Source: Sphingobacteriales bacterium
GTDB taxonomy: Bacteria > Bacteroidota > Bacteroidia > Chitinophagales > Chitinophagaceae
DNA length: 37,295 bases
Assembly (NCBI GenBank): GCA_024640465.1
Contig: JAHEEX010000009.1
Span: forward strand, 1-37,295
Reading direction: 5' to 3'
Shown piece by piece: positions 18,445 through 20,879 of the stretch. Below the pieces are notes generated by a model, which was given only the letters and a program-made list of their open reading frames with translations, had not been told where the DNA came from and searched no databases. Numbering within the stretch: position 1 is the stretch's first letter; each line of letters begins with the position of its first letter. Made by a program: the position numbers and the translations under genes.

Positions 18445-19782
18445 ATGAACGATTCTTCCAAACCTACACGCCGCGATTTTGTCAGGCAAAGCAGTCTGCT
18501 CGCCGGGGGCCTTGTAGCCAGTCCGCTTTTGTCAAAAGCTAATTTCTTTTCAGGTGCAGATGACACTATCAAAATTGCCCTTATAGGATGTGGTGGCCGG
18601 GGCACAGGCGCTGCCATGCAGGCATTGCTTACAAAACAAAATGTGAAACTGGTTGCCATGGCGGATGCATTTCGCGACAGGCTGGATGATTGTTATAAAG
18701 CACTTAATTCAGATGACTTGTCTGACTGGTCTGGCGTAAAAGGCAATGTAAAAAATAAGATAGATGTGCCCGAAGAAAGAAAATTCACCGGTTTTGATGG
18801 TTATTTAAAGGCCATTCCCCTTGCCGATGTTGTAATCCTTACCACGCCTCCGGGCTTTCGGCCAATCCATTTTGAAGAAGCTGTAAAACAAAACAAACAC
18901 ATCTTCATGGAAAAACCAGTTGCCACCGATCCCGCGGGAATTAAAAGAGTACTGGTTGCGGCGGAAGAAGCCAAAAAGAAAAAATTGAATGTAGTTGTTG
19001 GTTTACAACGCCATTATCAGAATTCATACAAAGAATTATATAAAAGAAAAGATTTGATTGGCGACATCACGTCTGCACAGGCCTGGTGGAACAATGATGG
19101 GGTTTGGGTGAATCCAAGAAAAGAGGGACAAACAGAAATGGAATACCAGATGCGTAACTGGTATTATTTTGTATGGCTTTGCGGCGACCACATAGTGGAA
19201 CAACATATTCATAATATTGATGTTGTGAACTGGTTCAAAAACGGCTATCCGGTGAAGGCGCAGGGTATGGGTGGACGTGAGGTGAGAAAAGGAAAAGAAT
19301 ACGGAGAGATATTTGATCATCACTATGTGGAATTTCAATATGCAGATGGTTCAATTCTTAACAGTCAATGCCGGCATATAAAAAATACCATGTCGAAAGT
19401 GGATGAATTACTCATTGGAACCAAAGGCAAGATCTTCTGCGGCAATGCAAATATTGTAGACCATAGAGGAAACGTTTTATACCAGTTTGATAAAAAAACA
19501 GAAAACAACCCATACCAGACAGAACATGACGAGTTATTTGCAGCAATAGCTAAAGGAGAATATAAATTTTCGGATGCTGAAAATGGCGCCAAAAGCACTA
19601 TGACAGCCATCTTTGGAAGAATGGCAACATATTCCGGACAAGTTCTGGATTGGGATAAAGTGCTTAATTCGGGACTGGACCTTCATCCTAAAACCTACGA
19701 TTTTGCAGCTGCACCACCAGTGCTGCCAGGGCCGGATGGATTTTACAAAATCGCCACACCGGGTATTACTAAATATGCCTGA
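18445..19782 (+). CDS. Tat-exported Gfo/Idh/MocA family oxidoreductase
   Basis: A 445-residue NAD(P)-dependent oxidoreductase with a twin-arginine signal (TRRDFVRQ, residues 8-15, then a hydrophobic Leu/Ala/Gly stretch). The Rossmann fold begins IKIALIGCGGRGTGAAM. The catalytic EKPVATDP motif and a later HIVEQHIHNIDVVNW segment, which supplies the usual His/Asp, are intact. Exported members generally carry their cofactor bound and act on sugars or glycosides, as in glucose-fructose oxidoreductase; that is family knowledge, not visible here. A 23-bp-stem terminator follows. It is probably functionally linked with the TIM-barrel and SUMF1-like neighbours. Confidence 0.92.
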   Translation: MNDSSKPTRRDFVRQSSLLAGGLVASPLLSKANFFSGADDTIKIALIGCGGRGTGAAMQALLTKQNVKLVAMADAFRDRLDDCYKALNSDDLSDWSGVKGNVKNKIDVPEERKFTGFDGYLKAIPLADVVILTTPPGFRPIHFEEAVKQNKHIFMEKPVATDPAGIKRVLVAAEEAKKKKLNVVVGLQRHYQNSYKELYKRKDLIGDITSAQAWWNNDGVWVNPRKEGQTEMEYQMRNWYYFVWLCGDHIVEQHIHNIDVVNWFKNGYPVKAQGMGGREVRKGKEYGEIFDHHYVEFQYADGSILNSQCRHIKNTMSKVDELLIGTKGKIFCGNANIVDHRGNVLYQFDKKTENNPYQTEHDELFAAIAKGEYKFSDAENGAKSTMTAIFGRMATYSGQVLDWDKVLNSGLDLHPKTYDFAAAPPVLPGPDGFYKIATPGITKYA

Positions 19783-19792
19783 TCCGTTTTAT

Positions 19793-19855
19793 ATAACCGC
19801 AAAGAAATAAGAAAATATTGTTTTGTTTTCTTATTTCTTTGCGGTTATTTTTTTT
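19793..19855 (+). terminator. long-stem intrinsic terminator after the oxidoreductase gene
   Basis: A perfect 23-bp stem (ATAACCGCAAAGAAATAAGAAAA and its complement) with a 10-nt loop is followed by eight T residues. It lies 10 nt after the stop. The T run is only on the plus strand side. Confidence 0.9.
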
Positions 19856-20010
19856 AAGACAAATTATCATCGCCATCGTGAAGCCATGGTTCGTGTCCTC
19901 TCGAACCATCATCATTAACATTTCGTTTTCCGCTTCGTGAAGACACGAACCGGGGCATCCCGATAATCAAATACCAAACCTTGAATCTTTTCGATAATTT
20001 ATTTTAAGAC
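19852..20010. mobile_element. candidate MITE-like element with REP-like palindromes
   Basis: A 141-bp segment (19861-20001) starts AAATTATC and ends GATAATTT plus one A, giving 8-bp terminal inverted repeats. It is flanked by the 9-bp direct repeat TTTTAAGAC (19852-19860 and 20002-20010), as after a target-site duplication. Extended by the flanking matches, the direct repeat is 16 of 17 bases (TTTTAAGACAAAxTATC). Inside are two diverged copies in opposite orientation of GGTTCGTGTCyTCwCGAA (19888-19905 and 19934-19951). The right direct repeat contains the stop codon of the ABC permease, leaving its frame intact. No transposase is encoded. Confidence 0.5.
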
Positions 20011-20879
20011 AAAATATCTTTCCGGTTAAATATATAAACAGAAGCTCCCAGAAAAATAACAATATGGGCCGCTAATATTCCTGCTGATCGAAGTACTGCA
20101 GGGAGGTTCTCCACTGACCCTACGATCTGTTCGTTATTACTGTTTACCTGGACGTCAAAAAAGCCCTTCCAGCCTAACATATGTGATGTGAACAGATAAG
20201 GCTTTACGGCATTAAATATGGGAAGGTTGAGTGTGTTCAAAATGGTAAAGACAATGATTATACTCATGCACGCCATAATTGGTCCGATTGAATTTTCGGC
20301 AAAAATACTCAGGAAAAATGCCAGCGATGCCACAGTTAGCATTGCCAGTGCAGCGAAACCAAAAGCAGCCACATAACGCCAAAGGGTATCCGATTGTAAA
20401 ATTTGTGTGACCACTTCACTCTTCATGATGATCATGTCATCTGCCCCAAAAATCAACATTGAAAGGAACAGCGCCCACACTGCCATCCAGATAAGCAGGG
20501 CGAGTGTATAAACAGCAGATGCCAGGAATTTACTGATAATAAGTTTTGTCCTGCTTACCGGCTTTGATACGAGCAATCGAAGTGTACCCATATTGGCCTC
20601 ACCGGAAATCATATCGCCAGCCACCAGGGCAATAAGCAAGGGCACATGGATCAGCAAGGTCTGTAAAATGATATATGCCAGCAGGTACCCATTGAGGATT
20701 TTCCCTTCCACATTAAATGAATCAGATAATGTCTGCATCCCAAATTTAATATAGGTTTCCCCATCAACATAAAAGCCCAGTTGAATTAATCCTACGATCG
20801 CTGCTATTGCAGCAAATGCGATATAGGTCCGGGGCTTATGGAAAATTTTAAACAGTTCAATTTGTACCAGTTTCCACAT
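20004..20879 (-). CDS. ABC-2 type transporter permease
   Basis: A 291-residue integral membrane protein with six predicted helices, opening MWKLVQIELFKIFHKPRTYI as is usual for ABC-2 permeases of the drug/lipid exporter kind. The motif GDMISGEANMGTLRLLVSKPVSRTKLI marks the cytoplasmic loop that contacts the ATPase. It is co-transcribed with the ATPase gene, overlapping it by 23 bp. The substrate is unknown. The final codons (DILS) lie within the direct repeat that flanks a small MITE-like element. Confidence 0.93.
   Translation of the reverse strand: MWKLVQIELFKIFHKPRTYIAFAAIAAIVGLIQLGFYVDGETYIKFGMQTLSDSFNVEGKILNGYLLAYIILQTLLIHVPLLIALVAGDMISGEANMGTLRLLVSKPVSRTKLIISKFLASAVYTLALLIWMAVWALFLSMLIFGADDMIIMKSEVVTQILQSDTLWRYVAAFGFAALAMLTVASLAFFLSIFAENSIGPIMACMSIIIVFTILNTLNLPIFNAVKPYLFTSHMLGWKGFFDVQVNSNNEQIVGSVENLPAVLRSAGILAAHIVIFLGASVYIFNRKDILS

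Follow-up and report, generated by a model that had tools for sequence, protein, structure and literature searches.

The REP doublet and its neighbors

The window (the whole stretch of 37,295 nucleotides that was analyzed) is contig C4 of a draft Bacteroidota genome of 3.8 Mb in 330 contigs, which is 94% complete. It contains a REP doublet (positions 19883 to 19956, forward strand) between two convergent genes, with a Gfo/Idh/MocA oxidoreductase gene on its left (18445-19782, forward strand) and an ABC-2 permease gene, recognized as an open reading frame on the reverse strand, on its right (20004-20879). The doublet resembles a BIME or REPIN core, its two REPs being placed head to head with their GCC tags facing outward, and its limits were set by alignment of the genome copies, which have these 74 bp in common and differ in their flanks. 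Between the oxidoreductase gene and the doublet, on the target side, lies a terminator-like hairpin (19795 to 19846, forward strand) with the arms AACCGCAAAG and CTTTGCGGTT and a 22-bp stem, found both by folding (z = −10.3) and by a terminator scan. An Rfam search of the window gave no match.

REP-A (19883 to 19909, forward strand) consists of the tag GCC, the stem ATGGTTCGTG/CTCGAACCAT, and the loop TCCT (folding z = −5.9), whereas REP-B (19930 to 19956, reverse strand), which is also supported by the other copies, has the tag GCC, the stem CCGGTTCGTG/CACGAAGCGG, and the loop TCTT (z = −5.1). The family consensus for the stem is CACGAACCAT in REP-A and CACGAACCGG in REP-B, and the window copy has one stem mismatch in each. 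The two REPs are joined by a 20-nucleotide linker, CATCATTAACATTTCGTTTT (19910 to 19929, forward strand), which a comparison of oriented copies by eye shows to be alike in most of them. To the right follows an arm (19957 to 19985, forward strand) that resembles the right arms, approximately ATCCGGAGAATCAAATACCTAACCTCG, of several oriented copies (L003, L004, L006, L008, L011, L021, and L023). Both GGTTCGTG palindromes, present as GGTTCGTGTC at 19888-19897 and GACACGAACC at 19942-19951, are strongly folded relative to shuffled sequences, and in DNA folding each REP as well as the doublet outperformed 200 of 200 shuffles (z = −4.7 to −5.9). The doublet can alternatively fold into one long hairpin; the differences between the REP-A and REP-B stems (AT/AT versus CC/GG) are compensated, which supports two local hairpins.

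A multicopy repeat family in the genome

A BLAST search with positions 19852-20010 recovered about 30 loci in the genome at 77 to 95% identity, with a common part of about 19883-19959, and these doublets are mostly intergenic. This bears out the expectation in the initial annotation of a multicopy, noncoding, REP-like mobile element with differing flanks. When the copies are oriented, their first half reads approximately GCC-ATGGTTCGTG-TCYY-CACGAACCAT, followed by the linker, and their second half approximately the reverse complement of GCC-CCGGTTCGTG-TCYY-CACGAACCGG. Of 41 distinct REPs, 38 carry the tag GCC; read with four bases, the tag is TGCC, AGCC, or CGCC in 36 of the 41 and TGTC in one. 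The loop starts with TC in most. The tag positions are unpaired across these REPs, and the outer two stem positions covary, being Watson-Crick pairs in 40 and 34 of the 41, compared with maxima of 32 and 26 in shuffles. Taken together, the copies are short imperfect palindromes, present many times, mostly intergenic, and arranged in inverted pairs, as is characteristic of REPs and BIMEs.

With respect to placement, a simple ORF caller put 12 copies between convergent genes, 13 between codirectional genes, and none between divergent genes, and the three copies called as lying inside genes involve short open frames. Some copies share extra arms, on the left near CCTATGTTTACAAATTGAAAACGAGGTTTTTTGGGC and on the right near ATCCGGAGAATCAAATACCTAACCTCG; since only some copies have them, the family is a mosaic. 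The unit of 141 bp that had been proposed does not hold, because its limits are not common to the other copies; the unit is rather the 74-bp doublet with variable arms. The same applies to the 8-bp terminal inverted repeats, AAATTATC at 19861-19868 and GATAATTT at 19993-20000, which are absent from the other copies and lie 14 and 36 bases outside the core, the left one inside a direct repeat.

The hairpin at 19795-19846 is part of a separate repeat motif that is commoner than the REP, with 202 genomic sites for AACCGCAAAGAAA at up to one mismatch compared with 16 for the reversed control. We also observe that AACCGCAAAGAAA is greatly overrepresented at at least 100 genome sites, including this one, and that a GAACGCAAAG-like half often follows it.

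Target duplications and empty sites

The doublet in the window is flanked by a direct repeat. The left copy, TTTTAAGACAAATTATC (19852 to 19868, forward strand), and the right copy, TTTTAAGACAAAATATC (20002 to 20018, forward strand), are identical at 16 of 17 positions and were found by local alignment of the flanks (score 20.5). Every string named in the initial annotation is present in the sequence, including the 9-bp direct repeat TTTTAAGAC at 19852-19860 and 20002-20010, but the true length of that repeat is 17 bp and it can be extended to 33 bp. In the extended form (19836-19868 versus 19986-20018), 28 of 33 positions are identical and the extension reaches into the terminator. In several other copies, too, the right arm ends close to a CTTTGCGGTT-like motif, so that only the 17-bp part is an unambiguous target duplication here. 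The right copy holds the last codons of the reverse-strand permease gene together with its stop codon, the coverage of which had been noted correctly. Within the 17 bp, the sole mismatch is a change from the gene end in the noncoding left copy; of the four in the extension, three are changes from the CTTTGCGGTT motif in the right copy. This pattern would fit decay of each copy where selection is absent.

Empty sites in relatives had been predicted, and they were found, all occupied/empty comparisons being made between species with one genome per species. In G001, G007, G017, and G020, the two genes stand close together and the element is absent, and in G017 the end of the permease gene carries AAGACAAAATATC just once. 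From this it follows that the right, permease-encoding copy in the window is the ancestral one and the left copy the derived one. The opposing outcome, a single copy in the genome and no empty site, did not arise.

Direct repeats of unique flanking DNA are also present at other copies, with 10 of 28, the window copy included, reaching a flank-to-flank alignment score of at least 15. No pseudo-element out of 1218 from the window and contig C323 reached this score, and in 20,000 permutations of the flanks the observed summed score was never matched. The length of the duplication varies by copy, from about 20 to 80 bp, with repeats of 21 bp (L012, identical), 28 to 29 bp (L016), 44 bp (L022), 48 bp (L017), and 77 bp (L020). 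A further repeat, at L018, is less certain, as this copy sits among another repeated motif: on contig C251, GCTCCGGAGGAGCGACATTCTTGTAG occurs several times in both flanks of the doublet. The remaining 18 of the 28 copies have no direct repeat at a score of 15, for which decay could be the cause. In most repeat-flanked copies the right end lies 0 to 6 bases past GGGGC (28 in the window copy), while the left ends lie at 2 to 75 bases and are not uniform. The AACCGCAAAG motif was also considered as the element's own end and rejected, since it is far commoner than the REP and has no flank duplication when it stands alone (0 of 20 sites).

The repeat at L020 begins within the last codons of a gene whose protein reads as deoxynucleoside kinase-like. 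In G001, G016, and G017, this kinase-like end occurs once and the element is absent before the next gene, whose product likewise reads as PEP carboxykinase-like. For L022, the search for an empty site yielded no relative in which the two genes are adjacent. The duplicated segments thus contain gene ends, of the permease in the window and of the kinase-like gene at L020, which indicates that they derive from the target rather than from the element. With the empty sites at these two loci, the doublet behaves like a mobile element that is accompanied by a target duplication. These duplications, gene ends included, show that GCC doublets do insert, and they record where.

How the doublets may have spread

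We consider it probable that the window holds a nonautonomous mobile REP doublet that was inserted with a long and variable target duplication, and the best reading is that it stands nearest to the CGTC-type REPs while being GCC-tagged. The folded hairpin of the doublet would be recognized by an enzyme acting in trans, and a copy of the doublet would be joined near its GCC tags to a target nicked on the two strands at widely spaced points. Fill-in of the long overhangs would then yield a target duplication that is long and variable, and copies downstream of genes, where the proteins are left unchanged, would persist.

The main rival, because the left end points are not uniform, is template switching, in which a replication fork is held up at a terminator or hairpin, and the growing strand switches to an ectopic REP doublet, copies it, and then resumes on its own template tens of bases upstream, so that an X-REP-X arrangement arises without a transposase. 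It accounts for the variable duplication length as well as the left ends, for the missing linked transposase, and for copies near AACCGCAAAG motifs, one of which is a terminator-like hairpin in the window. However, the right ends lie a few bases from GGGGC in most repeat-flanked copies, the 20 AACCGCAAAG sites have no such duplications, and template switching gives no reason why a REP doublet would be the DNA that is copied, which together make it an unlikely explanation. A tandem duplication of a flank-plus-REP unit followed by the loss of one REP would produce the same arrangement, and REP clusters reiterated together with flanking DNA are known (PMC3733652, PMC3116915). The tandem arrays L142, L131, and L113 resemble such clusters, and in L142 (Pedobacter) the repeated unit holds another REP with slight decay, as would be seen after a plain tandem duplication. 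Yet about ten sites in the genome show a simple X-REP-X with no adjoining second REP, so that many separate losses would be needed, and the relatives carry the empty form at the window and L020 sites; we therefore regard this route as highly improbable. As for a classical MITE with 8-bp terminal inverted repeats and a 9-bp target site duplication, the strings that suggested it do exist, but a MITE has conserved inverted repeats and a short duplication of fixed length, and here the inverted repeats and limits are absent from other copies and the duplication measures 17 to 33 bp in the window and about 20 to 80 bp elsewhere. This candidate was rejected, and we give it almost no credence.

Mobilization by a RAYT-type enzyme (TnpA_REP), as for the REPINs of Pseudomonas, would agree with the doublet layout, which is that of a REPIN or BIME, and the enzyme could be the Y1_Tnp of this genome or one missing from the assembly. 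On contig C323, about 1.2 kb separates the sole Y1_Tnp gene of the genome from a tandem REP doublet, and a DAHP synthase gene stands between them; this doublet is one among about 30 placements. However, this protein is of the IS200 type: it resembles solved IS200/IS605 transposases, it scores 59.7 bits for NF033573 (curated cutoff 55) and 26.5 for REP_Tyr_transpos (cutoff 80), and its C-terminal motif is YLDRQ, unlike the NP(L/V)(R/K)xG context described for RAYTs (PMC2817692). Orthologues of it adjoin aroB in 18 further genomes from the genus, all of which are without the exact REP core, and the REP lies within 1.5 kb of none of 59 other Y1_Tnp loci, 30 of them from REP-bearing genomes. Furthermore, IS200/IS605 elements are described as lacking a larger target duplication (PMC2817692). 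The RAYT with matching ends that had been suggested as a mobilizer is thus not what the Y1 genes examined provide, and we found no RAYT flanked by a cognate REP in this assembly, which at 94% completeness may miss genes. It is unlikely that the mobilizer is a RAYT encoded by this genome, and RAYT-type mobilization in general appears quite improbable.

The IS1634 transposase, known for long and variable repeats, was not detected in the genome, and neither was Ku. Tandem duplications through end joining are known in mammalian cells (PMC5730883), but with no Ku detected it is less likely that a fragment was captured through end joining at a staggered break. As a separate observation, the Y1 gene (L032 4918-5337, contig C323) lies between a DAHP synthase/chorismate mutase gene and aroB, as its orthologues do in 18 other species of the genus, and this transposase, placed within an operon for aromatic amino acids, is possibly domesticated.

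Relation to known repeats and distribution across Bacteroidota

The closest counterparts in layout and in the missing linked transposase are the CGTC-tagged REPs, described by Di Nocera et al. in 2013 (PMC3733652), whose class was not assigned here because the tag differs. In the passages of that work considered here, these repeats, reported from Bacteroidetes among five phyla and without an associated transposase gene, are mostly head-to-head dimers, with a loop of 4 to 5 bases, an unpaired tag at the foot of the hairpin, an unpaired 3-base tail, and a stem starting with an AT pair. The GCC doublets share the predominant dimeric arrangement, the 4-base loop, the unpaired tag, and the lack of an associated transposase gene, and the AT pair is found in REP-A only. 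They differ in the tag, NGCC and mostly TGCC here but CGTC (or TGTC/CCTC) there, in the stem (10 bp versus 8 to 9), and in the tails (CAT or AAA versus CCA). These passages mention no long direct repeats of the target, and the literature leaves open how RAYT-less REPs such as the CGTC class spread (PMC3733652).

Like REPINs and BIMEs (Bertels and Rainey 2011, PMC3116915; Nunvar et al. 2010, PMC2817692), the GCC doublet is an inverted, intergenic, dispersed unit. Unlike REPINs with a RAYT, it has no GTAG/GTGG tag and no REP-flanked RAYT and it carries a target duplication; it was not assigned to the GTAG/RAYT class because of what was found for tag and RAYT. Target duplications of such length are unusual for REP-type repeats and do not feature in the REP literature considered here. 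Long direct repeats of variable length upon insertion are shared with IS1549 and IS1634, for which repeats of 8 to 514 bp and no accepted mechanistic model are reported (PMC2266710), but those are autonomous insertion sequences with their own transposase. Literature searches with the letters of the palindrome and for REPs with target duplication returned nothing on this element.

The exact core GGTTCGTGNNNNCACGAACC occurs 44 times in the genome and is absent from 40 congeneric species. The longer pattern ATGGTTCGTGNNNNCACGAACCAT is present in at least 107 public-genome stretches, almost all from Bacteroidota, a host range that is a lower bound; the matches listed come mainly from Pedobacter, Terrimonas, and Pinibacter, and many are preceded by GCC. 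Three Pedobacter genomes have 12 to 25 exact cores each, with no reversed-control matches. The X-REP-X arrangement recurs in other genera, at L155 (with a 113-bp repeat) and L083, as does X-REP-X-REP-X at L152. We put forward only tentatively the notion that GCC-tagged REP doublets form a Bacteroidota-wide class, which may spread RAYT-free and, unlike known REPs, with long variable target duplications, through an unrecognized enzyme or a repair-based mechanism. The length, end points, and decay of the duplications form a measurable signature, for which any enzyme or repair mechanism that is proposed has to account.

Two further variants were noted among these genomes. In Pedobacter miscanthi (L113 6913-7690), four REPs are arrayed in tandem, and the repeating unit, about 250 bp long, contains a terminator-like hairpin. 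In Terrimonas ferruginea (L069, L073, L075, L082, L128, and others), the REP loop is mostly TATA, and palindromic flanks lengthen the hairpin in several copies.
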